Position numbers and translations under genes: made by a program. A DNA stretch of 40,262 bases from assembly GCA_017435645.1 (NCBI GenBank), contig JAFSER010000004.1:1-40262 (forward strand). Direction: 5' to 3'. The notes under the pieces are model-generated. The model was not told where the DNA came from and searched no databases. It saw nothing but the letters and a program-made list of their open reading frames with translations. Origin of the DNA: Clostridium sp. Its GTDB lineage: Bacteria > Bacillota > Clostridia > Clostridiales > Clostridiaceae. Of the stretch, positions 8,179-27,433 are shown piece by piece. The number at the start of each line of letters is the position of its first letter. Position 1 is the stretch's first letter.

Positions 8179-8339
8179 AAGTCTCCTCCTAATAAGTAAA
8201 AAAACTTCAAAAAATGAAAATTAACTTATATATTATATAAAATAATAATAAGTTTAATTTCAAATTATGAAGTATTCTAAAACTAGATTATTAATCTAAA
8301 ATTATATAATATTTTTAAAAATATAATTTATATTAATAA

Positions 8340-8480
8340 TTAATTATTTTCATTTACTTTAATTTCTTCATTACATTCTTTGCTTTTATTTTGGTTTTTC
8401 TTATCGTTAATTAAAGTTGCTACTAAAGCTACTCCTGCCATTGCTGCCACTGCTAATTTCCCAATATTTTTTATCTTCAT
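8340..8480 (-). CDS. Small membrane-associated protein, 46 residues
   Basis: An ATG at 8480 follows AGGAGGAATAAAA. The product starts MKIKNIGKLAVAAMAGVALV, a single hydrophobic segment, and ends with a Lys/Asn/Glu-rich hydrophilic tail. It resembles many short clostridial membrane peptides of unknown role. It lies 18 nt downstream of the DUF4250 gene in the same direction and is probably co-transcribed with it. The good ribosome binding site and amphipathic layout support it as a real gene. Confidence 0.65.
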   Translation of the reverse strand: MKIKNIGKLAVAAMAGVALVATLINDKKNQNKSKECNEEIKVNENN

Positions 8481-8959: not shown

Positions 8960-9826
8960 TTATTCCTCATCATAAACTTCTAAGTATTTTGTTTTAACTC
9001 CACTTTTTTCCCATCCAAGTATAGAATCTAAATTAACATTTTCTGCAGATTTAAATATTGACTTTTCAACACCATCAAAATTCTTTTTTAATTCCTTAAT
9101 AAGCTCTTTTATTTCATATCTTTTATTACCTATTTTTTCTGCAGCTACCATACAAGCACAGTTTAATGGCCAAATACCTGCATTATTTGTAAATCTCTTA
9201 ATATATTCTTCTTCTACATAATATAAAGGTCTAATAAGTTCCATTTCTGTAAAGTTAGCTGATTTAAACTTTGGCAACATAGTTTTAAAGTTACCAGCAT
9301 AAAGAACATTTAAAAGTGTTGTCTCAATTACATCATTATAATGGTGTCCTAAAGCTAGCTTATTGCATCCTAGTTCCTTTGCTTTATTATATAATGAACC
9401 TCTTCTCATTCTTGCACAAAGATAGCATGGATAATCTCTAGCCATCTTGTCTACAACTTCAAATACTTTTCCATCATATATATGTAGTGGTATTCCTAAA
9501 TGCTCACAATTTTCTATAAGAAGCTCTTTAATTTGTGGATGATATCCTGGATCCATTGCAATAAATTCTAAATCAAAATTCATTTGACCATGCTTTTTTA
9601 ATTCTTGAAAGCATTTAGCCATTAATAAGGAATCCTTTCCACCTGAAATAGCTACTGCAATTTTATCTCCTTCTTCAACTAGCTGATAGTCCTTAACTGC
9701 TCTAACAAACTTAGTCCATATATGTTTTCTATATTTTTTAACAAGGCTACGCTCTATTTCTGCTAAAGTTTTCTTTTCTTCAGTAGGAACAAGTCTCTCA
9801 CAGCCCTTTCCTGCTATACTACTCAA
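8960..9826 (-). CDS. TtcA-like tRNA sulfurtransferase (PP-loop ATPase)
   Basis: A 288-residue N-type ATP pyrophosphatase of the TtcA group, which adenylates and thiolates a tRNA base. The PP-loop is SGGKDS (61-66). Cys134 and Cys137 (CYLC), with CAC at 223-225, fit the cysteines that hold the iron-sulfur cluster and active site, and GHHYNDVIETTLLN is the second conserved block. The start is TTG at 9826, supported by GAGGTGA about 5 nt upstream; an ATG overlapping that region runs straight into a stop. In clostridia this family may act on tRNA or on a related sulfur transfer, so the exact base is open. Confidence 0.85.
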   Translation of the reverse strand: MSSIAGKGCERLVPTEEKKTLAEIERSLVKKYRKHIWTKFVRAVKDYQLVEEGDKIAVAISGGKDSLLMAKCFQELKKHGQMNFDLEFIAMDPGYHPQIKELLIENCEHLGIPLHIYDGKVFEVVDKMARDYPCYLCARMRRGSLYNKAKELGCNKLALGHHYNDVIETTLLNVLYAGNFKTMLPKFKSANFTEMELIRPLYYVEEEYIKRFTNNAGIWPLNCACMVAAEKIGNKRYEIKELIKELKKNFDGVEKSIFKSAENVNLDSILGWEKSGVKTKYLEVYDEE

Positions 9827-9889: not shown

Positions 9890-11254
9890 TTATTCTTTTA
9901 TATTAGACTTTATTGCCTGTGGAAAATTAAATATATTTTCAGGATTATATTTTTCTTTTATCTCTCTTAACTTCTTATAATTTTCTCCATAATACTCTTT
10001 TTCAAACTCATATAACTCATTAAACGGGAAATTAACAAAGGATCCTACTGTCATTGAACCTATAATCTTAAAGTTATCTATTATCCATTTCTTATTTTCT
10101 TCTGCAAATTCATCTTCTTCCCATACTGACTGAATTCCAAGAATAAATCGTGCATCTCTATAATAAAAAGCAGTATCATCTCTATTTATATCTGAAATAG
10201 CTCCTCCTAATCCATAAAATGATATAGCATTGTAATAATATCCCTTTGATGGATTACTAACTATATTAATAAACCTTTTAATTTCTTCTTTACTATAATC
10301 TTTATAAACAAATCTTCCTGTAGATTTATACTTTTCATAATCTGGATGACTGTCTTGTATCCATCTATTACAGTCTAAAAGGCTTCTTTCTTCTACTATA
10401 ACTTCTATATTCTTATCTACTTCTAATAATGGTTTTAATATTTTTCTTGCTTCTACAGTATCTCCATAAAATATTCCTGTTGCTTTTACTCCTCTTCCAT
10501 TTACAACAGAATTATATATAGCTGTTTTTAAATTTATTCTTCTATCTAAATCTTTATATAAATCTTGTAGTTCTAATATAAATTTAGTTATTATTTCATC
10601 AGTTGAGTTAGGATAGTTTATATAAATTATACTTGCTTTTTCTGCCTTTATATCTAACTTTAAAGTCATAGATGTTATAACACCAAAGTTACAACCACCA
10701 CTTCCCATTAAAGCCCAAAATAAATCCTTATTTTCTTTATTATTAGCAATTATTTTTTTTCCCTTAAAATTTATTATTTCAACTTCTATTAAACTATCAG
10801 AGGCAAGTCCTAAATATCTTGATGAATAACCCCATCCTCCACCTAATATTAATCCTGCTACTCCAACAGTTGGACATCCTCCACCAGGAAAAGCATATCC
10901 CTTACTTCCTAATGCTTCATAGGCTTCTCTATTTCTAACTCCACCACCTATTTTTACTTTTCCTTCTTCTTCATTTATTACAATAGTGTTAATATTACTT
11001 ACATCTATTATAGCTACATCATCACCTGTTGAATATCCCTCATAATTATGGCCACCTGATCTTATCCTAAGCTCTATATTATTTTCTGTAGCCCACTTTA
11101 TAGCATTAATTATATCTTCTTCGTTATAGCAATAAATTATAATATAAGGTTGTTTCTTTATAGCTCTATTCCAAGATAAAATATGTTCCTTATAATCTTT
11201 ACTTTCCTTTGTTATTATTTTCCCTGTTAAAGTTGAATAATCAAAAGTCCTCAT
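9890..11254 (-). CDS. FAD-dependent oxidase of the berberine bridge enzyme family
   Basis: A 454-residue PCMH-type flavoprotein. The FAD-binding domain (about 35-210) shows both attachment points of bicovalent FAD: His69 in RSGGHNYEG and Cys127 in PGGGCPTVGVAG. The C-terminal BBE segment YYGENYKKLREIKEKYNPEN closes the active site. Bacterial relatives oxidise sugars or other alcohols with oxygen, which is notable in an anaerobe and could mean an alternative acceptor or use during aerated sporulation. There is no signal peptide, so it is cytoplasmic. The gene is monocistronic and divergent from the cotJ operon. Confidence 0.88.
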   Translation of the reverse strand: MRTFDYSTLTGKIITKESKDYKEHILSWNRAIKKQPYIIIYCYNEEDIINAIKWATENNIELRIRSGGHNYEGYSTGDDVAIIDVSNINTIVINEEEGKVKIGGGVRNREAYEALGSKGYAFPGGGCPTVGVAGLILGGGWGYSSRYLGLASDSLIEVEIINFKGKKIIANNKENKDLFWALMGSGGCNFGVITSMTLKLDIKAEKASIIYINYPNSTDEIITKFILELQDLYKDLDRRINLKTAIYNSVVNGRGVKATGIFYGDTVEARKILKPLLEVDKNIEVIVEERSLLDCNRWIQDSHPDYEKYKSTGRFVYKDYSKEEIKRFINIVSNPSKGYYYNAISFYGLGGAISDINRDDTAFYYRDARFILGIQSVWEEDEFAEENKKWIIDNFKIIGSMTVGSFVNFPFNELYEFEKEYYGENYKKLREIKEKYNPENIFNFPQAIKSNIKE

Positions 11255-11766: not shown

Positions 11767-12029
11767 TGAAAAGGCATGAATATTTAGAAGTAATACAAAA
11801 GCTACAATTCTTTTTAGTAGACCTTAATTTATTTTTAGATGTAAATCCAACTTGTGAAAAGGCTAAAGCTGATTATGATAAAGTGTCTAGTGAATTAAAA
11901 AAGACTATTTGGAATTATGAAAAAGAATATGGTCCTTTAACTAACTTTGGTTATGCTTATTTTCAAAACCCTGAAGATTGGGTTAATTCTCCTTGGCCAT
12001 GGGAAAATACTAAAGGGGGTAAAAAATAA
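11766..12029 (+). CDS. cotJB: Spore coat protein CotJB
   Basis: An 87-residue protein with the CotJB pattern: an N-terminal helix (EYLEVIQKLQFFLVDLNLFLD), an NPTCEKAKADYDKVSSELK segment and the aromatic C-terminus FQNPEDWVNSPWPWE. The ATG overlaps the TAA of cotJA and its stop overlaps the cotJC start, so the three are translationally coupled. It assembles with CotJA and CotJC in the coat. Confidence 0.93.
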   Translation: MKRHEYLEVIQKLQFFLVDLNLFLDVNPTCEKAKADYDKVSSELKKTIWNYEKEYGPLTNFGYAYFQNPEDWVNSPWPWENTKGGKK

Positions 12030-12604
12030 TGTGGTATTATGTTAAAACTTTACAACATCCAGTAAATTTAAAATCTACAGATGTAGGAATGGCTAAGCTT
12101 TTAGTTACTCAATATGGTGGTCCTGATGGAGAACTAAGTGCTGCTCTTAGATATTTAAATCAAAGATATTCTATGCCAACTAATAAATCAAAGGCTCTTT
12201 TGACAGATATTGGAACTGAAGAGCTTGCTCATGTTGAAGTAATGGCTACAATGGTTCATCAAATAATGGAAAATGCTTCAATTGATGATATAAAAGCTGC
12301 TGGTTTAGATGGTCACTATGTAGATCATGGAAAAGGTTTATTCTATACTGATGCTAATGCAAATCCTTGGACTGCAACCTATATCCAATGTAAAGGAGAT
12401 GTAGTATCAGATTTAACTGAAAATATGGCTGCTGAACAAAAAGCAAGAGCTACTTATGAATGGTTAATGAATATAACTGATGATATGGAAATTAAAAAAA
12501 TTCTTGGTTTCTTAAGAGAAAGAGAAGTTGTTCACTTCCAAAGATTTGGTGAAGCTTTAGTTGATATTCAAGATAATACAAAACTAACAGATTTCTGTAA
12601 ATAA
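12029..12604 (+). CDS. cotJC: CotJC, manganese-catalase-like spore coat protein
   Basis: A 191-residue ferritin-like protein with the dimanganese ligand pattern: Glu in the LSAALRYL helix, TEELAHVEVMATMVHQI, ENMAAEQKARATYEWL and REREVVHFQRFGEAL. These are the four-helix Glu/His sets of manganese catalases. It probably removes peroxide or forms the coat scaffold. It is the last gene of the operon, followed by a terminator at 12611-12680. Confidence 0.95.
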   Translation: MWYYVKTLQHPVNLKSTDVGMAKLLVTQYGGPDGELSAALRYLNQRYSMPTNKSKALLTDIGTEELAHVEVMATMVHQIMENASIDDIKAAGLDGHYVDHGKGLFYTDANANPWTATYIQCKGDVVSDLTENMAAEQKARATYEWLMNITDDMEIKKILGFLREREVVHFQRFGEALVDIQDNTKLTDFCK

Positions 12605-13784: not shown

Positions 13785-14723
13785 CTAATTAGTTATATTA
13801 TAATATACAGCACCAACTAACCCAGCATCATTACCTAGTTCTGCAGCTTCTATTTTTAAGCTTTCTCCAAACTTTTTCATAACTTTAGTTAAAACGTAAT
13901 TTCTTACAGGCTCTATAAATAACTTTTCTTGTTTACTTACAGCACCACCAATTAAAATTATTTCTGGATTAAAAATATGAACTAAACTAACTAGTCCTTT
14001 TCCTATATTCTCAATCCAAGCATCTACAACTTCCTGTAATTTTTCATTATTATTTTCTAATTCATCAAATATATATTTACCGTTAATATCTTCTTTATTT
14101 ATTGATAAATTACCTATTTCATCATATTTTTCTCTAACCATTCTAATTAATGCAGTCATTGAAGCATATTGTTCATAGCAACCTATATTCCCGCAAGTAC
14201 ATTCTCTTCCATTAGAATCTATAGAAAAATGTCCAAGTTCTCCTGCTATACCTATATTACCTAGAAGTATTTTAGAGTCAACTATTATTCCACCACCTAC
14301 TCCAGTTCCTATAGTTATTCCTATAGCATTTTTATATCCTTTTGCTTTTCCTACCCATTGTTCTCCAATAACCATGCTATTCGCATCATTAATTACAGTA
14401 GTTTTTACATTATATATTTCTTCTAGCTCTTTTTTTATTTCTGTTCCACACCAGTTTTTAATATTTCCTCCAACACCAACAATAGCCCCAATATTGCTAT
14501 TAACTTGCCCTGTTGCAGATACACCTATTCCTTTAAGAGCACTTTTATCTACATTATTTTCTTCTAAAAATAACTTTATCGATTTTTTTACAGTTTCAAA
14601 CATAGGAGTTTCGTAATTATCAAAGGAAACACTGTAATTATTTGTAGCACTAATTTCTCCTTTATTATTAACTAACCCTAATTTTACTGTAGTTCCCCCT
14701 ATATCAACACCTAAATAAACCAT
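13785..14723 (-). CDS. nanK: N-acetylmannosamine kinase (ROK family)
   Basis: A 312-residue ROK sugar kinase. The ATP-binding DIGGTTVKLG lies at residues 6-15, and the ROK zinc site is CTCGNIGCYEQYAS. The GELGH segment supplies sugar-binding Glu and His. By context it phosphorylates N-acetylmannosamine made by NanA, giving the substrate of NanE. ROK proteins are hard to tell apart by sequence and glucokinase is possible, but the last position of a nan operon, 6 nt after nanE, makes NanK the best call. Confidence 0.88.
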   Translation of the reverse strand: MVYLGVDIGGTTVKLGLVNNKGEISATNNYSVSFDNYETPMFETVKKSIKLFLEENNVDKSALKGIGVSATGQVNSNIGAIVGVGGNIKNWCGTEIKKELEEIYNVKTTVINDANSMVIGEQWVGKAKGYKNAIGITIGTGVGGGIIVDSKILLGNIGIAGELGHFSIDSNGRECTCGNIGCYEQYASMTALIRMVREKYDEIGNLSINKEDINGKYIFDELENNNEKLQEVVDAWIENIGKGLVSLVHIFNPEIILIGGAVSKQEKLFIEPVRNYVLTKVMKKFGESLKIEAAELGNDAGLVGAVYYNITN

Positions 14724-14729
14724 ATCTAC

Positions 14730-15428
14730 TTACCCTCTTTTTATTTCTTTCATAAATCTTTCAGTTATTTCTAAAGGTCTAGTTATTGCACCACCAACAA
14801 CTACTGCATACGCACCAATTTCAAGCATTTTTGCAGCTTGTTCTGGATAATGTACTCTTCCTTCTGCTATTACTGGAATATCAACTGAATTTACTAATTT
14901 TTCAACTAATTCATAATCAGGTCCATCTAGCTTTTCTGTATAATCTGTATATCCACTTAATGTAGTTCCAATAAAGTCTACACCAGCTTTATATGCATTT
15001 ACACCCTCTTCATAATTAGATATATCTGCCATTATTAATAAATCTGGATATTTATCTTTAATTTTCTTTATAAATTCTTCTACTGTTTCATGGCTTACTC
15101 TTTCTCTTAAAGTACAATCTGTAGCCACTATATCAGCACCTGCTTCTACTAAAGCATCAATTTCATCCATAGTAACTGTAATAAAAGGACCATAACCTTC
15201 AGATACCTTTTTAATTATTCCTATAATAGGTAATCCTGTTTCTTCTTTTATTTTTACTACATCTAATACACCATTAGTTCTAATTGCACAAGCACCTGCT
15301 CTTTTTGCTGCTCTAGCCATCAATGGCATTATTGTATCATTTTCTATATATAATGGTTCACCAGGTAATGCCTGACATGATACTATTAATCCACCTTTTA
15401 ATGCTTCTAAAATTTCTTCTTTTCTCAT
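14730..15428 (-). CDS. nanE: N-acetylmannosamine-6-phosphate 2-epimerase
   Basis: A 232-residue TIM-barrel enzyme that converts ManNAc-6-P to GlcNAc-6-P. The N-terminal LKGGLIVSCQALPGEPLY is the NanE hallmark, followed by ARAAKRAGACAIRTNG, the IIGIIKK segment with the catalytic Lys, and the C-terminal phosphate site AEGRVHYPEQAAKMLEIGAY with VVVGGAITRP. The frame is full length. It follows the esterase pair with a 47-nt gap and precedes nanK. Confidence 0.96.
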   Translation of the reverse strand: MRKEEILEALKGGLIVSCQALPGEPLYIENDTIMPLMARAAKRAGACAIRTNGVLDVVKIKEETGLPIIGIIKKVSEGYGPFITVTMDEIDALVEAGADIVATDCTLRERVSHETVEEFIKKIKDKYPDLLIMADISNYEEGVNAYKAGVDFIGTTLSGYTDYTEKLDGPDYELVEKLVNSVDIPVIAEGRVHYPEQAAKMLEIGAYAVVVGGAITRPLEITERFMKEIKRG

Positions 15429-15475: not shown

Positions 15476-16432
15476 TTATTTAAATAACATAAATTTAAGA
15501 TTTTCATTTTCAAAAAAGTTATTTAACTCATGACCAAATTTATGAAAAATTAAATGTTTCTTTTGACAATTTGCATTATTAATAACTGCATATTGAGTAC
15601 TTGGAGGACAAATATTATCTAAGAGTCCTGTTCCTACCAATAACTCACAATTTAATCTCTTCGCAAAATTAACTATATCTATATAAGCTAATTTCTCAAA
15701 TACCTCTACTTCTCTTAAATGCATTGGATCAAACCATCTAAAATAATATCTTATTCCTTCATAGGCATCTTTATCTAAATCCATTTCCCAAACTCTCTTA
15801 AAATCAGCTAAAAATGGATATTGCATAGAGCATTTTTTTATATTCTTATTAAAAGCTGCTACTACTAATGCTAAAGCTGCTCCCTGTCCTTTTCCAAAGG
15901 TAATCATTTTATTAACATCTGTTTTTTCAAATTTTTCTACTATTTTAGAAAGAATATATGCATCTAAATAAACTTTTCTATAATACATATTTTCTAATGT
16001 ATCATCAATACCTAAAATAACATGTCCTGATACAGTGCTTCCCTTACTTCCTCCAAGGTCTTCACTTCTACCACCTTGTCCTCTACAGTCCATAGCCACT
16101 ACTGAATAGCCTATTCCTATATATCTTGTTAAATGGTGCCATCCTCTACTAGCTTCCTTATAATCATGGAATTCTAAAACTGTTGGCACTTTTTTATTAG
16201 CTTTAGGACAAATATATTTTGCATATATTTCAGCTCCATCTATACCTTTAAAAAATATTTCATAATAATCTGCTTGATTATTCTTAAAATCCTTTTTTAC
16301 AATTTTATACTGAAGCTCAATATTTTCAATATTTTTTATTTCATTTTCCCAAAATTCATCAAAATCATCAGGTATAATGCCCTTTCCCAAATATGATTCC
16401 ATTTCCTTTATAGGCATATCTAACATTGGCAT
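15476..16432 (-). CDS. CE7-family esterase homologue lacking the catalytic serine (pseudoenzyme)
   Basis: A 318-residue alpha/beta-hydrolase closely related to the neighbour at 16434. The fold markers remain: MDCRGQGGRSEDLGG, DNICPPST with Asp272, and His301 in FGHE. The nucleophile motif is GKGQGA instead of GxSQG, so residue 182 is Gly (codon 15887-15889, GGA), two base changes from any Ser codon. The oxyanion-hole segment FHGYPG is also altered, to FHDYKE. The reading frame is intact and the gene lies 1 nt from its partner, so a retained non-catalytic role (partner subunit or sugar binding) is likelier than simple decay. A different nucleophile cannot be excluded. Confidence 0.85.
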   Translation of the reverse strand: MPMLDMPIKEMESYLGKGIIPDDFDEFWENEIKNIENIELQYKIVKKDFKNNQADYYEIFFKGIDGAEIYAKYICPKANKKVPTVLEFHDYKEASRGWHHLTRYIGIGYSVVAMDCRGQGGRSEDLGGSKGSTVSGHVILGIDDTLENMYYRKVYLDAYILSKIVEKFEKTDVNKMITFGKGQGAALALVVAAFNKNIKKCSMQYPFLADFKRVWEMDLDKDAYEGIRYYFRWFDPMHLREVEVFEKLAYIDIVNFAKRLNCELLVGTGLLDNICPPSTQYAVINNANCQKKHLIFHKFGHELNNFFENENLKFMLFK

Positions 16433-16433
16433 A

Positions 16434-17399
16434 CTACATATCCTCCTTTAAGAAAAAGTCTATTAGCATATCATCAAAGGCACTTATTTCCTCATGAGTA
16501 TAGTCTGGGAAAATAATATGTTGCTTTTTAGATTTTATATTATTATAAGCAGCAAATTGAGTAGATGGTGGACAAATATTATCCATAAGTCCTGTCCCCA
16601 TTAATACCTCTGCTTCTAATCTAGTTACTAAATTATGAACATCTATATAACCAAGTTTTGTAAACATTTCTTTTTTATCATTGCCTATTGTATTGAACCA
16701 CCTTGAATAATATCTAAGGCCTTCATAAGCTACTAAATCTAAATCCATATCATATACTCTTTCATAGTCTGATAAAAATGGATAAAGAGCAGCACATTTT
16801 TTTATTATTGGATTTAAAGATGTGCAAGCTAAAGTTATTCCTGCACCTTGACTAGCTCCATTTGCATATATTCTATTTTTATCAATTCCATCAAGCTCCT
16901 TAGCTATTCTACACAATATAGATGCATTTTGAAAAAGCCTTACATAATACATATCCTTAGCTTCTCCATCTAGCCCTGCAATAATATGTCCTGATACTGT
17001 AGTGCCTTTAAATCCTCCAATATCCTCTCCTTTTCCACCTTGTCCTGGGCAATCCATAGCTATTAAAGCGCATCCCATTCCAGCAAAGGAAGTTTGTTCA
17101 AACCACCCCCTACTTGCTCCTGGATATCCATGAAATTGAAGAATTAATGGTAGCTTATCATCTGATTTAGGCTTAACATACTTTGCATAAACCTCTTCTC
17201 CATTTATACCTTCAAACCACAAATCATAATAAGAACAAGCTTCAAAACCACTTATCTCACTATCTGTAATAGAATATCTTAAAGTGTGATTCTTTACTTC
17301 TTCCATTCTCTCATCCCAAAACTTATGAAAATCCTCTGGCATTGGGTTTGTTCCTCTATACTTTTTAAGCTCATCTAATGGCATATCTACTACTGGCAT
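16434..17399 (-). CDS. CE7-family acetylesterase (acetyl xylan esterase/cephalosporin C deacetylase type)
   Basis: A 321-residue cytoplasmic carbohydrate esterase. Its catalytic triad is visible: Ser183 in NGASQGAG, Asp273 in MDNICPPST and His302 in YTHEE. The oxyanion region HGYPGASRGW and the RGQGG-like CPGQGGKGEDIGG are intact. CE7 enzymes remove O-acetyl groups from sugars. In this operon the likely job is to de-O-acetylate imported sialic acids, since O-acetyls hinder the lyase. It follows the flavoprotein gene by 4 nt. Confidence 0.88.
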   Translation of the reverse strand: MPVVDMPLDELKKYRGTNPMPEDFHKFWDERMEEVKNHTLRYSITDSEISGFEACSYYDLWFEGINGEEVYAKYVKPKSDDKLPLILQFHGYPGASRGWFEQTSFAGMGCALIAMDCPGQGGKGEDIGGFKGTTVSGHIIAGLDGEAKDMYYVRLFQNASILCRIAKELDGIDKNRIYANGASQGAGITLACTSLNPIIKKCAALYPFLSDYERVYDMDLDLVAYEGLRYYSRWFNTIGNDKKEMFTKLGYIDVHNLVTRLEAEVLMGTGLMDNICPPSTQFAAYNNIKSKKQHIIFPDYTHEEISAFDDMLIDFFLKEDM

Positions 17400-17403
17400 T
17401 TAA

Positions 17404-19029
17404 TCACTCTCCTTGAAAATACACTTTAATATCACCATCAAATTTTATGTTTATTTTTTTATTCATATTATTATCTATACTAGGATAATCACTTCTGTAA
17501 TGTGAACCTCTACTTTCCTTTCTCATATCAATAGCAAGTAAAATAGCCTTTGATAATAATAAATAATTTAATAATCTAAAAGAATATTTAACATTACTAT
17601 AGTCTACTTTTTCCTTAAGCTTAATATTTTCTTTAATATTATCTAACTCTAAAATAGCCTTTCTTAATTTACTTCCTTCTTTTTCGATCATTGCATTATT
17701 AAACATAATATCCTTAATTTTATTAATTAAATTCTTTGATTCTTCTATTTCAAAAATTTCAAATTCTATTTCTTCTATTCTGTCATGAGTATTATTTTTA
17801 ACATATGAACTTGCATTATTACCAGCAATAATACCAAAAACTAAAGCATTTGCTGTTGATAGTCCACCTATTCTATCTGCTCCATGCATACCTCCAGTAC
17901 ATTCACCTGCTGCATATAACCCATTTATTCCAGTTTCTGCTTTAGAATTAATATAAATTCCACCATTAGCCGCATGAAAAAATACTCCAATATTTATGTC
18001 ATCATCCATAGTTAGATGTTTATTTTCTTTTAACCATTTAAAATATACTTTTATAAATTCTGGAGAATTGTTTTTTAATTCTTTTTTATATTTTATTTGT
18101 ACTCCTTTTTCATTCTTCAAAAATTCATTAAATATAGCATAATCAATTTCCCTAGAAGATAGCCTAGATGTAAAAGGACCATAAGTTGATCTTAAATCTA
18201 GCTTTTCTTCTATATACTCAATATTCCTAAAAATATCTTCGCCATTCGAGTTAGTAGCTTGAATATATTTAAATGTTTTTTCATTAAATATAGTCTTATA
18301 ACTTGGACTAATAAATCCTGGCATCATTTGCATAAACTCAAGATTTGTTAGATTACATCCTTTTTTTAATGCAATAGCTTGCATACTTCCAATAACATCG
18401 GCTGTATTTAAACTATACTTAAATAAGTTACCTAAGCCACCACTAGCAATAACTATAGATTTGCAACTAATAAACTCAATATTTTTATTATCTCTTATTA
18501 GCACTACACCCTTTATTTCATCATTAATTTTGACTATATCTATAACTTCTGAAAAAGGATATTTTATTATATTTTCATTATCTAAAAGTTTTTTAAATAT
18601 TTCTTTTCCTTCATTTGATACTAAACCATTCCATTGTCTTTTTTTATAATCAAAGCATGGAATAAATTCTTTTTCATCTTCGTTATCAGGACTTATAAGA
18701 TTAATTCCAAGTCCCTTCAAATATTCCTTTGACTTATTAATATTTTCTACAAAAGTTTTTACTAACTCCTTATCTACTACATCACAACCTACTTTTATTA
18801 TTGTGTTTATAAAATCTTCTATATCATCATTATGTTCTGGGCTTATCATACCAAAGCCCCATGTTCCTGGATAAAAGCTTGATCCAGATAGAATATTTAC
18901 ACTACTTGAAATTATAACCTTGCTCCCATTTTTTGAAGCTTGAATTGCAGCCATAACTCCTGCAATCCCAGCTCCTATTATAAAAACATCACATTCAATG
19001 TTACTTTTTAGATTTATCTTATATTTCAT
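17404..19029 (-). CDS. FAD-dependent oxidoreductase, fumarate reductase/NadB-like flavoprotein
   Basis: A 541-residue soluble flavoprotein. The N-terminal dinucleotide fold is VFIIGAGIAGVMAAIQAS (15-32). Catalytic-type residues of the SdhA/FrdA/NadB family are present: His352 in HAANGG, Arg293 in SSREIDYAI, and Arg386 in HGADRIGG. The C-terminus has RKESRGSHYRSDYP. There is no heme or FMN domain, no signal peptide and no partner iron-sulfur subunit nearby. Its start overlaps the end of nanA by 11 nt, so it belongs to the sialic acid operon. It is not a known Nan enzyme. Aspartate oxidase is possible but nadA and nadC are absent. I infer a redox step on a modified sialic acid, such as an unsaturated or oxidised form. 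Confidence 0.82.
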   Translation of the reverse strand: MKYKINLKSNIECDVFIIGAGIAGVMAAIQASKNGSKVIISSSVNILSGSSFYPGTWGFGMISPEHNDDIEDFINTIIKVGCDVVDKELVKTFVENINKSKEYLKGLGINLISPDNEDEKEFIPCFDYKKRQWNGLVSNEGKEIFKKLLDNENIIKYPFSEVIDIVKINDEIKGVVLIRDNKNIEFISCKSIVIASGGLGNLFKYSLNTADVIGSMQAIALKKGCNLTNLEFMQMMPGFISPSYKTIFNEKTFKYIQATNSNGEDIFRNIEYIEEKLDLRSTYGPFTSRLSSREIDYAIFNEFLKNEKGVQIKYKKELKNNSPEFIKVYFKWLKENKHLTMDDDINIGVFFHAANGGIYINSKAETGINGLYAAGECTGGMHGADRIGGLSTANALVFGIIAGNNASSYVKNNTHDRIEEIEFEIFEIEESKNLINKIKDIMFNNAMIEKEGSKLRKAILELDNIKENIKLKEKVDYSNVKYSFRLLNYLLLSKAILLAIDMRKESRGSHYRSDYPSIDNNMNKKINIKFDGDIKVYFQGE

Positions 19030-19948
19030 CTAAGAATTCTACACCTGTAATGTTATAAGTTTCCTTTATATTCTTAAGACCAGCTCTAAACTCTTCTGCC
19101 TTAGCTTCATCTAAGTTTTCAAATGGGCTACGACAAATACCTGCATTTATGCCTCTCCAATTTAATATAGTCTTCATTCCTGCATAGAATGATGGTAGTT
19201 GTAAACAATACATTATAATTTCAATAGCTTGTCTTTGAAGTTTAGTTGCTTCATCTATATCTTTATTGTCTACTGCTTTCTTTATATTAATAAATAATTC
19301 TGGCATTATGTTATAGAATGATCCTATTATTCCATCTGCCCCTGATAATAATCCTGAAACAGCCATTTCATCTGCTCCAGAGTATACTAAAAAGTCTTCT
19401 CCAACTTCATCCTTTATTTGAGTTATTTCATAATGAGCTAATGCTGTATATTTTATACCTTTAACATTTTCAATAGCTGCTAATCTCTTTATAGCATTCA
19501 TTCCTAATAATCCAACTAGTGGAACATTATAAACTATCATTGGTAGGCTACAAGCATTAGCTATTTCTGTATAATAATTTACTATTTGATTTTCATTAAA
19601 TTTCCAATAGAAAGGAGGTACACTTGAAATTCCATCTGCTCCAACTTCTTCAGCGTGTTTTGCTAATTCTATAGAAAGCTTAGTTCCTATAGCACCAACA
19701 TGAACAACAACTGGAACTCTACCTTTATTTTCATCCATAACTATTTCTACTACTCTTTTTCTTTCTTCACTACTCATAGTAAAGCCTTCTCCTGTAGATC
19801 CAGTTAAATATAAACCATCTACCCCTTTACTAATTAAGTAAGAAACAAGCTCACGCATTCCTTTTTCATCAATTTCTTCATTTTTATCAAAGGCTGTTAA
19901 TACTGCTGGAATCACACCTTTAAAATCTTTAATATCAAATTTACTCAT
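19019..19948 (-). CDS. nanA: N-acetylneuraminate lyase
   Basis: A 309-residue DHDPS-superfamily aldolase that splits Neu5Ac into ManNAc and pyruvate. The pyruvate-binding GSTGEG (Ser51, Thr52), Tyr140 in VYNVP and the Schiff-base Lys166 in KGIKYTA are all in place. The sequence around KYTALAHYE and SGADE fits the NAL subgroup rather than DapA. Its ATG overlaps the end of the upstream ATPase gene by 8 nt, showing tight coupling of uptake and cleavage. Confidence 0.95.
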   Translation of the reverse strand: MSKFDIKDFKGVIPAVLTAFDKNEEIDEKGMRELVSYLISKGVDGLYLTGSTGEGFTMSSEERKRVVEIVMDENKGRVPVVVHVGAIGTKLSIELAKHAEEVGADGISSVPPFYWKFNENQIVNYYTEIANACSLPMIVYNVPLVGLLGMNAIKRLAAIENVKGIKYTALAHYEITQIKDEVGEDFLVYSGADEMAVSGLLSGADGIIGSFYNIMPELFINIKKAVDNKDIDEATKLQRQAIEIIMYCLQLPSFYAGMKTILNWRGINAGICRSPFENLDEAKAEEFRAGLKNIKETYNITGVEFLDEI

Positions 19949-20969
19949 TTTTATCCTCCTTAATATTTATGTCTGCTAAATGACATGCTACATAATGTTC
20001 TTTACCATCAATAATATATTTTTTTAATAATGGTCTTTCTCTTTTACAAATTTCCATACACTTTTTGCATCTAGGATGGAAGTTACATCCCGATGGTGGA
20101 TTTACTGGACTAGGTACATCTCCTTCCAATACTATCCTCTTACTTTTTTTACTTAAATCAGCTATAGGAATTGCTGATAATAAAGCCTCCGTGTATGGAT
20201 GTAAATAATTTGAAAATACTTCTTCTGTATCTGATAGTTCAACTATTCTTCCTAAGTACATAACTGCAATCCTATCACTTATATATTCAACTACACTTAA
20301 ATCATGAGTAATAAAAATATAAGTTAAATTTCTTTCTTCCTTAATTTTTTTTAATAAATTAAGGACTTGAGCTTGTATTGAAACATCTAAAGCTGAAACT
20401 GACTCATCACAAATAATTAACTCTGGATTAACACATAAAGCTCTAGCTATTCCAATTCTTTGTCTTTGACCACCAGAAAATTCATGAGGATATCTATCCA
20501 TATATTCTCTACGCATATTAACAGCCTCAAGAATATCTCCAATTATCATTCTTCTTTGCATTTTATCTTTAACTCCAAATTTCTTTAGAGGATCTGATAA
20601 AGATTGATAAATTGTGAAAGCTGGATTTAAAGATGAATGTGGATCTTGGAAAACTATTTGCATCTTTTTTCTTGCTAAATCCATTTCTTCTGAATTTAAT
20701 GTTAGTAAATTTTTCTTACCAACATTTCCTTGGAAATCATAGTTCATTTCACCAGAAGTAGGCTTTACTAACTGAAGAATTGATTTCCCTAAGGTCGTTT
20801 TACCACAACCTGATTCCCCTACTAATCCCAAGGTTTCACCTCTATAAATAGTTAAGTTAATATCATTTACAGCTTGTACAAATCTAGTTGGTTTCTTAAA
20901 CATACTATCCTTAATTGGGAAATGTGTTTGCAAGCCTTTAAGTTCTAATAAAACTTCCTTATTTTCCAA
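19941..20969 (-). CDS. ABC transporter ATPase (DppF/OppF type; SatD-like role)
   Basis: A 342-residue ATPase with Walker A GESGCGKTT, signature FSGGQRQRIGIA and Walker B LIICDESVSALD (Ser in place of the usual Pro, a common variant). The C-terminal extension has the Cys-rich CNFHPRCKKCMEIC of oligopeptide-type ATPases. It pairs with the ATPase at 20959, overlapping it by 11 nt. In SatABCD-type systems this peptide-like transporter carries sialic acid; context makes that the likely substrate here. Confidence 0.9.
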   Translation of the reverse strand: MENKEVLLELKGLQTHFPIKDSMFKKPTRFVQAVNDINLTIYRGETLGLVGESGCGKTTLGKSILQLVKPTSGEMNYDFQGNVGKKNLLTLNSEEMDLARKKMQIVFQDPHSSLNPAFTIYQSLSDPLKKFGVKDKMQRRMIIGDILEAVNMRREYMDRYPHEFSGGQRQRIGIARALCVNPELIICDESVSALDVSIQAQVLNLLKKIKEERNLTYIFITHDLSVVEYISDRIAVMYLGRIVELSDTEEVFSNYLHPYTEALLSAIPIADLSKKSKRIVLEGDVPSPVNPPSGCNFHPRCKKCMEICKRERPLLKKYIIDGKEHYVACHLADINIKEDKNE

Positions 20970-21993
20970 CTTCCATCACCTCTTTCTTTTTATTATTCTC
21001 TAGTACTTCCTTGTACTTATAGCAACGTACCATATGACTATTACTAATATGCATTTCTTCAGGCATTTTATTACACTCTTTACATGCATAATTGCATCTT
21101 GGTGCAAATTGACACCCCTTTGGTCTATCATATGGATCTGGTGTTGAACCCTTTATTGGACTTAAATCTTGATTTTTCCCTTTTCCTAAAATAGGAATAG
21201 ACTTAAGTAATGCTTCTGTATATGGATGAGCTGGCATAGTTAAAATTTCTTCAACTGTACCACTTTCAATAATATTTCCCATATACATAACTGCAACATC
21301 ATCTGCAAGCTCACTTACAACACCCATGTCATGAGTAATTAACATTATTGCTGTATCATTTTCTTTTTTAAGCTTATCCATTAGCTCAAAAATCTGTGCT
21401 TGTATAGTAACATCTAATGCTGTAGTGGGTTCATCTGCAATAAGTACCTTAGGATTACAGCTCATAGCCATAGCTATCATTGCTCTTTGCCTCATTCCTC
21501 CTGAGAATTGATGAGGAAACTCTTTAATTCTTTGCTCTGGAAATGGTATTCCCATATCCTTTAATAGATTTAAAGTTCTTTCCTTTGCTTCTTTTTTAGA
21601 AATTTTTTCATGACAAAGAATATTTTCTGCAATTTGATAGCCTACAGTATAAACTGGATTTAAGGCAGTCATTGGATCTTGGAAAATCATTGCAATATCT
21701 TTACCTCTTAATGCCCTCATTTCCTTTCCATTTCTAGAAAGCTTGTCAATTCTTATATCACCTTCATCACTATGATAAATTATTTCTCCCTCTTCTATTC
21801 TTGATAGTTTAGGTAATAATTGCATAATTGATGAAGCTGTTACACTTTTACCACATCCTGATTCTCCAACAATACAAAGTGTTTTACCCTTTTTTATTTT
21901 AAATGAAACCCCATTTATAGCTTTATTACATCTTTGATTAGTATAAAAGAAGGTTTTCAAATTATTAACACTAATTATAGCTCTATCTTCCAC
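20959..21993 (-). CDS. ABC transporter ATPase (DppD/OppD type; SatC-like role)
   Basis: A 344-residue ATPase with Walker A GESGCGKSVTASS, signature FSGGMRQRAMIAM and Walker B VLIADEPTTALD. The C-terminal oligopeptide-ATPase cysteine cluster is CQFAPRCNYACKEC. It follows the DppC-like permease gene by 15 nt and precedes its partner ATPase with an overlap. It powers import together with the two permeases. Confidence 0.92.
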   Translation of the reverse strand: MEDRAIISVNNLKTFFYTNQRCNKAINGVSFKIKKGKTLCIVGESGCGKSVTASSIMQLLPKLSRIEEGEIIYHSDEGDIRIDKLSRNGKEMRALRGKDIAMIFQDPMTALNPVYTVGYQIAENILCHEKISKKEAKERTLNLLKDMGIPFPEQRIKEFPHQFSGGMRQRAMIAMAMSCNPKVLIADEPTTALDVTIQAQIFELMDKLKKENDTAIMLITHDMGVVSELADDVAVMYMGNIIESGTVEEILTMPAHPYTEALLKSIPILGKGKNQDLSPIKGSTPDPYDRPKGCQFAPRCNYACKECNKMPEEMHISNSHMVRCYKYKEVLENNKKKEVMEVGK

Positions 21994-22008: not shown

Positions 22009-22938
22009 TTACCCTTGTTGAGTAGGGTCAGTTGTATCTCTTAAACCATCTCCAAGGAAATTAATACTCATAACAAATAATGATATTACAATACCTACTG
22101 GTAACCATAACCACCAATTATTTTGTAATGTGTACATATCTTGAGATGCATTTAATATATTACCCCAAGTTGCTATTTCAAGTGGCACACCTAATCCTAA
22201 GAAACTAAGTGCTGCTTCTTCTAAGATAAACATAGCTGTACTCAATGTTATATTAACCACAATTGGTCCAATAGCATTAGGTAGCATATGCTTATAACAA
22301 ATAATAAAATCATTTAATCCAAAGGTTTTTAAAGATTGGACATATTCTTCTTCTCTAATAGAAAGAATCTTTGCACGAGTCATACGATATACACTACCCC
22401 AACCCGTTAATATAAATATTATTATTAAATTAGTTAAGCTTTGTCCTAATATCGAAACTAGCATAAGCACTAATATTAGTTGAGGGAATGACATAAATAC
22501 TTCTGATAATCTTAAAACTACCTTATCAAATATTCCACCTTTATAACCTCCATAGCACCCTAATAAAACTCCTATAAAAGCACATCCTAAGGCACTGCCT
22601 AATCCTACCAATATAGATATTCTTCCACCATATAAAACTCTAGCAAATACATCTCTACCAACCTTATCTGTTCCAAAAATATGTTCAGATGAAGGTGCTT
22701 GTAGTACATTCTTCATATCAATTACTAAAGGATCATATTTAGTAAGAAGTGGTGCAAAAATAGATGATAATAAAATAACTAAAAATACTATAATTCCAAC
22801 AACTGCTAATCTATTATTTAAAAGCTTTCTTAAAGAACGATTAACCTTCTTATTCCCTAAAACTCCTGATTCTTCTAATTCTTTTATTTTGTCTAACTTT
22901 CTATCAAATCGACTTCTTTTTTCTCTTACTTCAGCCAT
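22009..22938 (-). CDS. ABC transporter permease (DppC/OppC type)
   Basis: A 309-residue inner-membrane permease. A basic cytoplasmic N-terminus is followed by about six membrane segments. The conserved HIFGTDKVGRDVFARVLYGG and the EAALSFLGLGVP segment are those of DppC/OppC permeases. It forms a heterodimer with the DppB-like protein encoded just upstream (10-nt gap). Confidence 0.93.
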   Translation of the reverse strand: MAEVREKRSRFDRKLDKIKELEESGVLGNKKVNRSLRKLLNNRLAVVGIIVFLVILLSSIFAPLLTKYDPLVIDMKNVLQAPSSEHIFGTDKVGRDVFARVLYGGRISILVGLGSALGCAFIGVLLGCYGGYKGGIFDKVVLRLSEVFMSFPQLILVLMLVSILGQSLTNLIIIFILTGWGSVYRMTRAKILSIREEEYVQSLKTFGLNDFIICYKHMLPNAIGPIVVNITLSTAMFILEEAALSFLGLGVPLEIATWGNILNASQDMYTLQNNWWLWLPVGIVISLFVMSINFLGDGLRDTTDPTQQG

Positions 22939-22948
22939 AATAAACCTC

Positions 22949-23908
22949 CTACTCTAACTTAACTCTAGGGTCAAGTAATGCTGTTAAAATATCTACTAAA
23001 AAACTAGATACTAAAACTGTTGTTACAGTAATAAGTGCTATTATCATAACTAAAGGGTAATTTTGAGAACGTACTGCAGTTGCAAAAGCACTTCCTATAC
23101 CTGGCCATCTAAATATACTCTCAATAACTACTGCTCCCCCTATTAAAGTAGGTAATCTAAATCCTATTAAAACTACAACCGGAGTTAACGCAACTCTAAA
23201 ACCATGAACTAAGTTAACTCTCCATTCTGGTAACCCCTTACTTCTAGCTGTTCTTATATATTCCGCATTCATAGTATCTAACATACTAGAACGTGCATAT
23301 CTCATAACTCCTGCAGTAAGAGAAATTCCTAAAACTAATGCTGGTAATATTAAATACTCATATCTATCAATAAATGCAGTTTTCCCCGGCATCATACGAC
23401 CTCCAACTGGAAGCCAACCTAACCTTAAAGAAAAAATCAATATACATACCATACCAAAGAAAAATTGTGGTATCGAAACACCAAGCATTCCTGCAACAGT
23501 TAATAAATTTTCTGAAAAAGTTCCACGTTTTATTGCACTAAACAAACCTAATACACTACCTAAAATCGTAGAAATTAATAACGCTGCTACAGCTAATTCT
23601 AAAGTTGCTGGTAATAAATCTTTTATTGTTTCTATAATAGGAACTCCACTTGATACACTATATCCAAAATTACCTTTTAAAAGTTCTCCTAACCATCTAA
23701 AATAACGTACTAAAAAAGGATCATTTAAGCCATAGGCAGCACGAATTTCTTCAAGTTTTTCTGGATCAACATTTGCAAGCATTTCTGGACTTATCATATG
23801 CGATACTGCATCACCTGGAGTTAATTCTAGACCTAAATATATGATAAATGTTATTAATATTAACATTGGTATTAGCCCTAGTATTTTCTTAATTATAAAT
23901 TTACCCAT
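22949..23908 (-). CDS. ABC transporter permease (DppB/OppB type)
   Basis: A 319-residue permease with an uncleaved N-terminal helix, a periplasmic-type loop containing ELTPGDAVSHM, and the C-terminal membrane domain with MNAEYIRTARSKGLPEWRV (the EAA-type coupling loop). It is separated from the binding-protein gene by 139 nt that hold a hairpin, which may lower its expression relative to the binding protein. Confidence 0.93.
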   Translation of the reverse strand: MGKFIIKKILGLIPMLILITFIIYLGLELTPGDAVSHMISPEMLANVDPEKLEEIRAAYGLNDPFLVRYFRWLGELLKGNFGYSVSSGVPIIETIKDLLPATLELAVAALLISTILGSVLGLFSAIKRGTFSENLLTVAGMLGVSIPQFFFGMVCILIFSLRLGWLPVGGRMMPGKTAFIDRYEYLILPALVLGISLTAGVMRYARSSMLDTMNAEYIRTARSKGLPEWRVNLVHGFRVALTPVVVLIGFRLPTLIGGAVVIESIFRWPGIGSAFATAVRSQNYPLVMIIALITVTTVLVSSFLVDILTALLDPRVKLE

Positions 23909-24047: not shown

Positions 24048-25685
24048 CTAATTTATTACCCAATCTTGTACATTCCAATCATAGTTGAATTGTGGGTTAC
24101 CATATGCTTCAAGTCCTGTTTCTAATCTAGTGCTCTCGATTAAATATATTGGTTGATAATATAGTGGTATTTCAAATAAAGTTTCATTCTCATATTTTTG
24201 TAGTTCATAATATGCTTGTTTTTGAACTTCACTATCCATTGATGCATTAGTTGCATCTATTAAAGCGTTTAATTTTTCATCTTCTGGAGTATGTGAATTG
24301 GTTGGTGATCCTGTTCTATATCTATCATAATATTCATGCATTGATAATGCTGCATTTGCTGCATAACACATATCCCAATCTACAGCACTTGGACCATTTG
24401 TTTGATCTTCTGGTGCTGACCAAAGAATAGTTGCTAAATCTCCTTCAACTAATCTAAAGTTCATTTTAATTCCAACATCTTTTAAGTATGCTTGTATTGA
24501 AGTCATTAAATCTACTGTTGTTTGATCTGTATAATAATAAACTACATCTATTTCATAATTTGCATCCCAATTAGCTTCTGCTAATAACTCTTTTGCTTTT
24601 TCCGGATTATATTCATATTCATTTAATCCATCAACTTTATCTGAACCATTTGGAGTTAAACTATTTGCAGGGACTATAGTTCCATCAAATAAGTTTGCAC
24701 CTATTGTTTCCATATCTATTGCATATCTAATAGCTTGACGAACTCTATAATCTGCTAGTGGAGATTTCGTTCCATCAGGCTTATCAAATTTATTCACATA
24801 GAATAAACGAGTATATCTAACATCAATTTGAGTTAATTTTACATTTGCAGCATCTTTTAAAGCCTTAACATCTGCTACACTCTTAGTATATCCATAATCT
24901 AATAGTCCTGAATTAACATTGTTAACTAAATTAGCATCACTATCTCCAGGGCTTGGGGTTAAGTGAATAGTAAAGCTTGCAACACCATCATAATACTTAT
25001 CAAATGGTACTAAAGTAGTATAATCGTTAAGCTTAACTTCTTCTACTTTAAATGGTCCTGAGCCTACAGGACTTTGGAAGTAATCTGCTTGTTGAATCAT
25101 TAATGGATCAACATCTTCAAAATATTTTTGTGGTAATGGAGCAAATTGAGTAAATGTTAATAATGCATCTGGTGCTACTTTATCAAATGTAATAGTAATT
25201 GTATTACCATCTATTACTATTCCTTCTAATCCATCAGCTTCACCAGCTAAATAAGCTTCACTACCCTTAATTGCTTGGAAAGTACTTAAAAATACTGAAT
25301 TAATTACAGCAGTATTCATTGAATATTCTATACTCCATTTAATATCCTCAGGAGTAATTTTTTCACCATCATGCCAGTAAATATCATCCCTTAAAACAAA
25401 TATTAGTTCTGTTCCATCTTCGCTTAAGGTATATTCTTTTGCTAATTCGCCATGACTTGGATTCAGATTTTCATCTGATTCAATCAAATGGTCATATAGA
25501 ACCTTATTGTAGGTATAAGCACCTGGGTTTAACCAAGGAGTTTCAAAAAATTCTATAGGTCCACCATTAGAATACATAACTTTATCTTCTGTTTCAGCAG
25601 TTTCTGTTTCTTTACTTCCACTACCACATGCCACTAATGATAATGACATTAAGGCAGCCAGGATACAGCTAATAATTTTTTTCAT
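24048..25685 (-). CDS. Extracellular solute-binding lipoprotein, family 5 (SatA-like)
   Basis: A 545-residue lipoprotein with signal peptide and lipobox LVAC (lipid-modified Cys20). The body is the peptide/nickel-type family 5 fold, with segments such as YTLSEDGTELIFVLRDDIYWHDGEKITPEDIKWS and DYRVRQAIRYAID. It is the first gene of the eleven-gene operon, read from the promoter at 25769-25797. Family 5 proteins bind peptides, opines or sugars; the SatA proteins of Haemophilus ducreyi and bifidobacteria bind sialic acid. Context supports that substrate. Confidence 0.9.
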   Translation of the reverse strand: MKKIISCILAALMSLSLVACGSGSKETETAETEDKVMYSNGGPIEFFETPWLNPGAYTYNKVLYDHLIESDENLNPSHGELAKEYTLSEDGTELIFVLRDDIYWHDGEKITPEDIKWSIEYSMNTAVINSVFLSTFQAIKGSEAYLAGEADGLEGIVIDGNTITITFDKVAPDALLTFTQFAPLPQKYFEDVDPLMIQQADYFQSPVGSGPFKVEEVKLNDYTTLVPFDKYYDGVASFTIHLTPSPGDSDANLVNNVNSGLLDYGYTKSVADVKALKDAANVKLTQIDVRYTRLFYVNKFDKPDGTKSPLADYRVRQAIRYAIDMETIGANLFDGTIVPANSLTPNGSDKVDGLNEYEYNPEKAKELLAEANWDANYEIDVVYYYTDQTTVDLMTSIQAYLKDVGIKMNFRLVEGDLATILWSAPEDQTNGPSAVDWDMCYAANAALSMHEYYDRYRTGSPTNSHTPEDEKLNALIDATNASMDSEVQKQAYYELQKYENETLFEIPLYYQPIYLIESTRLETGLEAYGNPQFNYDWNVQDWVIN

Positions 25686-25891: not shown

Positions 25892-25942
25892 TTTGATATT
25901 TTTTATTATTTTATTAATTTTTTATCAAATCTATTATATAAT
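25892..25942 (+). promoter_or_regulatory. yhcH promoter with an overlapping inverted repeat
   Basis: A TATAAT at 25937-25942 is a good -10; the -35 (TTAATT) is weak, suggesting regulation. TTTGATA (25892-25898) and TATCAAA (25923-25929) form an inverted repeat just upstream that could bind the NanR regulator. Confidence 0.45.
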
Positions 25943-25976
25943 AAGCATAAACTTATTTGAAAAGAGGGATATTTTT

Positions 25977-26426
25977 ATGATAGTAGGGAAAATTAATGAT
26001 TTAATTCGTTACAAAGGATTAAATAAAAATCTAGATACTGCTATAGATTTTATTGTAAATACTGATTTAAATACTCTAGTTGACGGAAGAAATGAAGTAG
26101 ATGGAGATAATGTATTTATTAATAAATTTATTTATACTGGTAATGAGGAAGGTGATGGATTTTTTGAAGGTCATAAAGACTACTTAGATATTCATATGGT
26201 TTTAAGTGGTTGCGAAAAGTTAGGATATGCAGACATATCAGAATTAACAGCAGTTACTGAATATGATAAAAATACTGATTTTACTAAGTTTGAAGGAAAT
26301 ATTAAAAATTACATAAAATTAGAACCTTTAGATTTTGCTTTAACATTTCCTGAAGATATTCATATGCCAAAAATAAAAATAAATGATGAGAAAATTGAAA
26401 AGCTTGTATGTAAAGTACTTTTGTAA
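25977..26426 (+). CDS. yhcH: YhcH/YjgK/YiaL family protein (NanQ-like)
   Basis: A 149-residue cupin-like protein. Metal-ligand-type residues are visible: Glu64, His66 and His73 in EGHKDYLDIH, and His129 in FPEDIHMP. NanQ of E. coli is of this family and speeds the anomer interconversion of sialic acid; others act with EbgC-type pathways. The ATG at 25977 follows AGAGGG, so upstream in-frame residues are not part of it. It is divergent from the import operon and probably co-regulated. Confidence 0.88.
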   Translation: MIVGKINDLIRYKGLNKNLDTAIDFIVNTDLNTLVDGRNEVDGDNVFINKFIYTGNEEGDGFFEGHKDYLDIHMVLSGCEKLGYADISELTAVTEYDKNTDFTKFEGNIKNYIKLEPLDFALTFPEDIHMPKIKINDEKIEKLVCKVLL

Positions 26427-26506: not shown

Positions 26507-27322
26507 CTAAGTTTCTGATTTATTAATTAATAATTTTGCAGTTTCTTCTTTTAAAGCTAATACTTTATTTTTATTTAACAATGCATAACCTGTACTTAGT
26601 AAATCTATTATGTAAAGTTGAGAAATTTTAGTTATTAATGAACCTCCATCTAAAAGATTTTCTTTACTTGCTGTTACTAACACACAATCTGCTAATTTTG
26701 CCACTGGTGATAAAGGAAAACTAGTTATTGCTATAATTTTAACATTTTTCTTCTTTGCAATTTTTAAAGAATCTAAAATATCCTTCGTATATCCAGATAA
26801 GCTTAAAGCTAAAATAACATCATTTTCAGTACAAGTTGAAGAATACATTAATTGAAAATGACCATCTGTAACTGAAATCCCCTTCTTTCCCATTCTAATA
26901 AATCTACTTTTAGCCTCACCGGCTGCTAATCCTGAAGCCCCTACTCCATAAAATAAAAGAGTATCAGAATTTTTAATAAGATCAATGGCTTTATCTAATT
27001 GATTAGTATCTAATATACTTTTTGTATTTTCAATTGCATTTATCATATTAGTACTTATGGAATCTATATAGTTTTCAGGATATGTTTCTTCTACTGGCTT
27101 ATCATCCTTTGCTATTTGTAATTTTAAATCTTGAAAGCCATTAAATCCAATTTTTCTTACGCATCTCAATATTGTTGCTTCACCAACATTTATTTTTTTT
27201 GAAATGTCCTGTAAAGTCTCATATAATATATTTCCTTTTTCTTGTAAAATATACTCTGCTACTTTTCTTTCTGATTTACTTAAAGAAGGATAGCAAGATT
27301 TTATCATAGATACGTACTTTAT
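26507..27322 (-). CDS. nanR: RpiR-family regulator, probable NanR
   Basis: About 271 residues. The N-terminal RpiR helix-turn-helix has SKSERKVAEYILQ ... ISKKINVGEATILRCVRKIGFNGFQDLK. The C-terminal SIS sugar-phosphate domain has LLFYGVGASGLAAGEAKSRF and ILALSLSGYTKDILDSLK. NanR proteins of clostridia are of this type and sense ManNAc-6-P. The start is unclear. The frame is open to an ATG at 27433 that lacks a ribosome binding site. A strong AGAAAGAGGTGG points to an ATA codon at 27322, with GTG at 27331 and ATG at 27307 as other choices. It faces yhcH and is monocistronic. Confidence 0.85.
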   Translation of the reverse strand: MKYVSMIKSCYPSLSKSERKVAEYILQEKGNILYETLQDISKKINVGEATILRCVRKIGFNGFQDLKLQIAKDDKPVEETYPENYIDSISTNMINAIENTKSILDTNQLDKAIDLIKNSDTLLFYGVGASGLAAGEAKSRFIRMGKKGISVTDGHFQLMYSSTCTENDVILALSLSGYTKDILDSLKIAKKKNVKIIAITSFPLSPVAKLADCVLVTASKENLLDGGSLITKISQLYIIDLLSTGYALLNKNKVLALKEETAKLLINKSET

Positions 27323-27433
27323 ATTAACCACCTCTTTCTCATATCCTAATTTATTTCCAATTATATATTTATTAAGTATATATTTCAAGAAATTTAAACA
27401 ATATATTGTATTTTCCCCAAAATTGAAAATCAT

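Follow-up and report, generated by a model that had tools for sequence, protein, structure and literature searches.

For gut bacteria, sialic acid from the host is an important food source. E. coli needs NanY to grow on two of its forms, Neu5Ac2en and 2,7-anhydro-Neu5Ac (accessible sections of PMC10955332), and the NanOx reaction, in which C4 is oxidized, is redox-neutral overall with a tightly bound NAD+ (accessible sections of PMC7535918). Among sialate importers, SatABCD (ST3) has an Opp-type architecture, and its binding protein belongs to the peptide-binding type (accessible sections of PMC10017367). In the same superfamily as the enzyme described here, the mono-carboxylate reductase urocanate reductase retains the carboxylate-binding His and Arg and the proton-donor Arg and has lost the second-carboxylate His (accessible sections of PMC7921117). 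The available text of four sialate reviews and surveys (PMC10017367, PMC8754123, PMC2693436, and PMC10570557) makes no mention of a flavoprotein step, with "flavo" and "fad" occurring in taxon names or as fadR, and no description of a flavoprotein, fumarate reductase, or FAD oxidoreductase of sialate operons was found in the open-licence literature, as far as its text was available.

The frdX gene and its operon

The window, i.e., the whole stretch of 40,262 nucleotides analyzed here, is an entire contig of a 1.29-Mb Clostridium sp. assembly that is 79% complete. On its minus strand, frdX (positions 17404 to 19029) encodes a single-subunit flavoprotein of the SDH/FRD/NadB type, 541 amino acids in length, belonging to a distinct clade. 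All genes of the operon lie on this strand, in the order SBP-oppB-oppC-oppD-oppF-nanA-frdX-axeA-axeB-nanE-nanK. The frdX reading frame opens with an ATG within the last part of nanA, confirming the 11-nt overlap given in a preliminary description of this DNA, and 4 nt separate the frdX stop from the start of axeA. The lyase gene nanA (19019 to 19948; 309 amino acids) passes the N-acetylneuraminate lyase model NF003164 of NCBIfam with 283.1 bits against a cutoff of 281; the TIGR00683 cutoff was not reached, and the top PDB matches are E. coli NanA entries. Family scans identified nanE (14730 to 15428) as a ManNAc-6-phosphate 2-epimerase, while nanK (13785 to 14723), a probable ManNAc kinase, passes the Pfam ROK family and stays below the respective cutoffs of all NCBIfam ManNAc kinase models.

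The importer consists of an SBP_bac_5 binding protein (24048 to 25685), assigned from Pfam, PDB matches, and its recurrence with frdX in relatives, together with oppB-like (22949 to 23908) and oppC-like (22009 to 22938) permeases and oppD-like (20959 to 21993) and oppF-like (19941 to 20969) ABC ATPases; these four names derive from translations and gene order only. The solved relatives of the binding protein carry mostly peptide, nickel, and opine names. Upstream of the operon are an RpiR-family gene with a SIS domain, identified by family scans as a probable nan regulator (26507 to 27433, minus strand), and a divergent plus-strand gene of the YhcH/YjgK/YiaL family (25893 to 26426), kin of the anomerase NanQ, which passes TIGR00022 and scores 91.4 of the 160 bits of the NanQ equivalog model. 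No iron-sulfur, heme, or FMN-domain partner was seen beside frdX among the operon ORFs or in the Pfam scan, and no FrdB-type iron-sulfur partner was present among these ORFs, which look like genes of the importer, nan, and AXE1 kinds. The operon showed no excess of promoter matches over shuffled sequence (88 versus an average of 93.7) and yielded no terminator.

Two AXE1-family genes follow frdX, and their duplication is the longest repeat found. The first, axeA (16434 to 17399), carries the nucleophile motif GASQG, as it does in each of the 10 pairs examined (those of the window, the sister operon L165, and eight relatives). In its paralogue axeB (15476 to 16432; GKGQG), Gly replaces the nucleophile Ser in 10 of 10 pairs, as GKGQG, GEGQG, or GEGLG, with the His region kept. 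As the nucleophile is missing, axeB is likely inactive as an esterase, and of the "two esterases" noted earlier, axeA retains this label and axeB loses it. The pair, which is conserved across Clostridium, Anaerotruncus, C. porci, and C. citroniae, looks from its motifs like an active subunit joined by an inactive one.

Several further features of the window lie outside the operon. These are an apparently secreted GH3 beta-N-acetylhexosaminidase-like protein of 922 amino acids with a repeated (S/T)EN(A/T)PEEDG-type linker (28919 to 31687); a 191-amino-acid manganese catalase (12029 to 12604) that appears short at its C terminus, since its match covers positions 1 to 198 of a 284-position Pfam model; a reverse transcriptase with an HNH domain, probably from a group II intron (829 to 2808); and a second flavoprotein, a berberine-bridge-type FAD oxidase (9890 to 11254).

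Fold, active site, and family of FrdX

FrdX contains FAD_binding_2 and Succ_DH_flav_C domains across a full-length SDH/FRD/NadB superfamily fold, and its structural model is confident; Pfam and structure comparison thus bear out its earlier description as a 541-residue FrdA/NadB-type flavoprotein. The Pfam matches are to FAD-binding families and Succ_DH_flav_C, with no GFO/IDH family among them. TfrA, NadB, and SDH/FRD flavoproteins give the best HMM and PDB matches, but the scores are far below the respective cutoffs, at 176 bits against 452.75 for NadB (TIGR00551) and 198 against 718 for TfrA. Six nadA-linked NadB proteins of related genomes, which score 327 to 438 bits, likewise fall under the TIGR00551 cutoff. 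In the tree, the FrdX homologues form a single clade that is separated from the NadB, FrdA, and SdhA proteins of E. coli and from two clostridial NadB proteins with SH-aLRT support of 100. A nadA gene and a separate NadB are present in 6 of the 12 frdX genomes of the family, with neither seen in the other six (one of which, G000, is 79% complete). A weak NadB-HMM match in a 711-amino-acid frame of G015 (C10:1052899-1053639) lies 3 kb from nanE, the sole exception among 43 non-FrdX NadB-HMM matches.

Residue conservation was counted in an alignment of the window protein and 38 relatives, with L034 omitted as almost identical to L027. H352 (kept in 38 of 39) and R386 (39 of 39) align with H351 and R386 of NadB, the His/Arg pair that in this superfamily grips the activating carboxylate, and E250 is likewise found in all 39 sequences. 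At position 236, the equivalent of the second-carboxylate His (H244 of NadB), FrdX has Met in 34 sequences and Ile in 5. N249 aligns with a Thr of FrdA, and the covalent-FAD histidine of FrdA, which we take to be H44, corresponds to a Ser in the window protein. In place of the loop around NadB E121, presumably the amino-group residue, FrdX has a PCFD motif that hardly varies (P and C in 39 of 39, F and D in 38 of 39). The preliminary description had placed R293 with H352 and R386 in the hydride-transfer site; the latter two stand, whereas position 293 is Arg in only 15 of 39 sequences. In the MAFFT alignment, R289, which is Arg in 34 of 39 (Glu in L039 to L041 and Lys in L042), comes closest to the proton donor of NadB and FrdA. 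As hhalign places this loop a few residues away from its MAFFT position and R280 is invariant across the alignment, the proton donor is left between R289 and R280, either of which appears to be a better candidate for the catalytic arginine than R293. Taken as a whole, the predicted active site fits a mono-carboxylate substrate.

Assignment of FrdX as an L-aspartate oxidase was rejected on the low NadB score, the loss of the second-carboxylate His in all 39 sequences, and the existence of a separate nadA-linked NadB in 6 of the 12 family carriers. Fumarate reductase was rejected on that same His, the lack of the covalent-FAD His, and the lack of a FrdB-type partner in the operon. Judged by sequence and genome context, FrdX therefore looks like neither enzyme, and this alternative, which the preliminary description had itself raised, is disfavored.

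Recurrence of frdX with sialate genes and an importer

The neighborhoods of 39 relative loci were compared, 23 from named genome contigs, 10 from carriers found in the family search, and 6 from class and Lachnospiraceae-type searches; the last family carrier, G020, is already represented by L013, and L137 was dropped as a repeat of L023. Neighboring genes were labeled by BLAST against window and reference proteins using a simple ORF picker, and some contigs end early. At an E value of ≤1e-60, frdX was found in 12 of 206 genomes of the family, and all 12 carry nanE, compared with 62 of the 206 overall (hypergeometric P = 2.5e-7, kinship not corrected). It was present in 9 of 348 genomes of the Lachnospiraceae-type sample, while searches at the order level (12 of 225 genomes at 1e-80) and class level (4 of 391) gave one extra carrier outside the family, G581. 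A pattern scan of viral contigs found no FrdX relative.

A nanA gene accompanies frdX in 21 of the 39 loci, 19 times on the frdX strand and additionally in L131 and L133. The same Opp-type importer occurs in 28, with 26 binding-protein genes on the frdX strand and those of L132 and L133 on the opposite strand. An AGE epimerase is present in six loci (family membership was tested for L015), the axeA-axeB pair in eight, and yhcH sometimes lies between the genes. In Clostridiaceae-type loci other than L042, nanA precedes frdX, and in most others it follows. Grouping at 80% identity reduced the 40 rows, including the window, to 31 groups, of which 18 have nanA and 23 the importer, and on the frdX tree the linkage to nanA requires seven changes and that to the importer three. 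Pairwise distances of frdX correlated with those of nanA (r = 0.67), nanE and nanK (0.66), and the importer genes (0.49 to 0.55), but as shared descent was uncorrected, these values were given no weight. In L131, a sialate locus, the gene next after frdX encodes a group II intron maturase (7012 to 8403).

No clear sialate gene was seen within approximately 9 kb of frdX in 15 of the 39 loci (L018, L020, L025 to L029, L031, L032, L034, L043 to L045, L134, and L136). L018 holds a weak ROK match, five of the loci are Eggerthellaceae type (L025, L027 to L029, and L034), and L043 and L044 are shorter frdX homologues beside an sbcCD-like pair. Across 35 frdX genomes, nanE is absent from 11, 4 of which have nanA and AGE beside frdX. 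Conversely, the sister operon L165 (in G029, which has a distant frdX homologue elsewhere in the genome) is collinear as opp-nanA-axeA-axeB-nanE-nanK without frdX; here the longest axeA ORF opens 52 nt past the stop of nanA (within 9256 to 9309), and axeA may start further in. G198 likewise has opp-nanA without frdX. From these operons and the loci lacking sialate genes, frdX is an accessory of sialate operons and not a required part. A conserved nanA neighborhood, which the preliminary description had proposed to look for, was found in part of the sample. Neighbors changing freely, which it had taken to speak against its reading, were also found in part, as order and partners vary, yet nanA and the importer recur.

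With E. coli NanY as the query, orthologs (59% identity) were found in 2 of the 12 family carriers, G020 (C. nigeriense) and G064, each in a separate locus of nanY with a Sat-type transporter. Four other carriers gave partial matches of 27 to 31% identity and six gave none at 1e-15, such that a match at ≤1e-100 is missing in 10 of the 12 genomes (one of them 79% complete). In the Lachnospiraceae-type sample, NanY was matched at 1e-80 in 7 of 348 genomes; the frdX carriers with a match are G618 and G664 (41% identity), and seven of nine carriers have none at this threshold. Across nine NanOx loci, the Sat-type transporter genes are, where matched, 26 to 32% identical to the sugar ABC transporter encoded next to certain frdX genes, and identification of the latter as the known 2,7-anhydro importer was rejected on this basis. 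A GFO/IDH oxidoreductase gene lies by frdX in six loci (e.g., L038, 12749 to 13855, and L040, 8000 to 9145). It was rejected as NanOx for L040 and L038, where a glucuronide-3-dehydrogenase is the top PDB match and NanOx/NanY entries are absent from the 6 and 7 PDB hits, respectively, at 1e-15; its product is possibly a sialoside 4-dehydrogenase.

Possible role of FrdX and comparison with known systems

For substrate class, reaction direction, and electron route, we infer the following scheme. FrdX would be a soluble, single-subunit enzyme of the cytosol with probably noncovalent FAD, acting before or beside NanA on an acid that the neighboring Opp-type ABC importer delivers. A sialate-type carboxylate would be held by H352 and R386 next to the flavin, R289 (or R280) would give or take a proton, and a hydride would pass between flavin N5 and the beta carbon, with the site that binds the second carboxylate in fumarate reductase and aspartate oxidase remodeled to take a different and probably larger partner. 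NanA, with a YhcH-type anomerase, would receive the product, followed by the NanK/NanE or AGE route. As the operon encodes no electron-transfer partner, the reaction would be redox-neutral overall or use a general cellular carrier. On chemical reasoning, ordinary fumarate reductase chemistry would turn Neu5Ac2en into a 2-deoxy acid that is not expected to be cleaved by NanA; the adjacency of nanA would hence be better matched by a redox-neutral cycle or another sialic form. The 2,3-didehydro and 2,7-anhydro forms of Neu5Ac are possible substrates, but as the sole answer they are disfavored because G020 and G064 also hold NanOx.

Our preferred reading, with a probability of roughly 0.48, is that FrdX acts on a sialate-type acid in a role beyond that of a plain NanOx copy. 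The step would be an accessory one, opening up a form of sialic acid beyond the reach of the plain Nan set, and would be more than a duplicate of the job of NanOx. The fuller proposal, that a new clade of the SDH/FRD superfamily with its own Opp-type importer converts a form unusable by both NanA and NanOx, is more tentative. We know of no superfamily member that acts on a sugar acid of sialate size, and FrdX would be the first. The original observation is partly confirmed, and its interpretation as a reduction or oxidation of an unusual sialic acid before lysis is partly supported.

FrdX might instead act on another acid from the Opp importer, such as the acyl group or aglycone of a conjugate, the sialate genes serving a different part of the molecule. 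The opp-frdX and opp-frdX-axe-axe units without nanA (L018, L020, L026, L031, and L032) would agree with this, as would the Eggerthellaceae-type loci apart from nan genes and the names of the solved binding-protein relatives; however, nanA or yhcH directly follows frdX in many loci without an esterase, while esterase genes are likewise found where frdX is missing, and we place this account on the unlikely side. It is decidedly unlikely that FrdX is a nonhomologous stand-in for NanOx, a flavin enzyme turning 2,7-anhydro-Neu5Ac or Neu5Ac2en into Neu5Ac with a hydride borrowed and returned. Both enzymes occur together in G020, G064, and G618, the known importer of the 2,7-anhydro form is not common to both, and C4, where NanOx oxidizes (accessible sections of PMC7535918), is not obviously reached by a carboxylate-anchored geometry of the FRD type. 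Such a stand-in would nevertheless account for the many carriers without NanY and for the lack of an electron partner, and NanOx, with its tightly bound NAD+, is itself redox-neutral (same source). A displaced L-aspartate oxidase or fumarate reductase, serving NAD synthesis or as an electron sink and in the operon by chance, is highly improbable; the best HMM and PDB matches point that way, but the scores (176 and 198 bits), the His lost in 39 of 39, and the recurrent nan linkage argue against it.

Returning to the preferred reading, an unnamed flavoprotein family that in related bacteria often travels with sialic acid genes and one importer hints at a missing step for unusual sialic acid forms, and if true, would constitute a flavin-dependent branch of sialate catabolism. 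The recurrence of enzyme and importer suggests that a natural form is used via a route not yet assayed. Given the compact operon, the confident structural model, and a natural sister operon lacking frdX, the question is directly testable.

Compared with NadB, FrdX has the same fold, a single subunit, no covalent-FAD histidine, and the H351/R386 pair, but differs in the Met or Ile in place of H244, the PCFD loop around the E121 position, the absence of a link to nadA, and scores far under those of nadA-linked NadB from the same genomes. With UrdA and other mono-carboxylate members of the superfamily it shares the kept His/Arg and the lost second His (accessible sections of PMC7921117), but it has no FMN-binding domain in the Pfam scan, has a Succ_DH_flav_C domain at its C terminus, and is encoded within a sialate operon. 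The importer resembles SatABCD in its Opp-type architecture and peptide-kind binding protein, with HdSatA (5z99) matching the window binding protein at 8.6e-9 and ranking below 50 other distinct sequences of the PDB. Like NanOx/NanY, FrdX is linked to nan genes and an importer and may carry out a conversion ahead of NanA; in contrast, NanOx/NanY has another fold and cofactor (GFO/IDH/MocA, NAD) and occupies Sat-type transporter loci, sometimes in the same genome as FrdX. Since the two coexist and their transporters are only 26 to 32% identical, FrdX marks a branch other than that of NanOx and able to exist alongside it.
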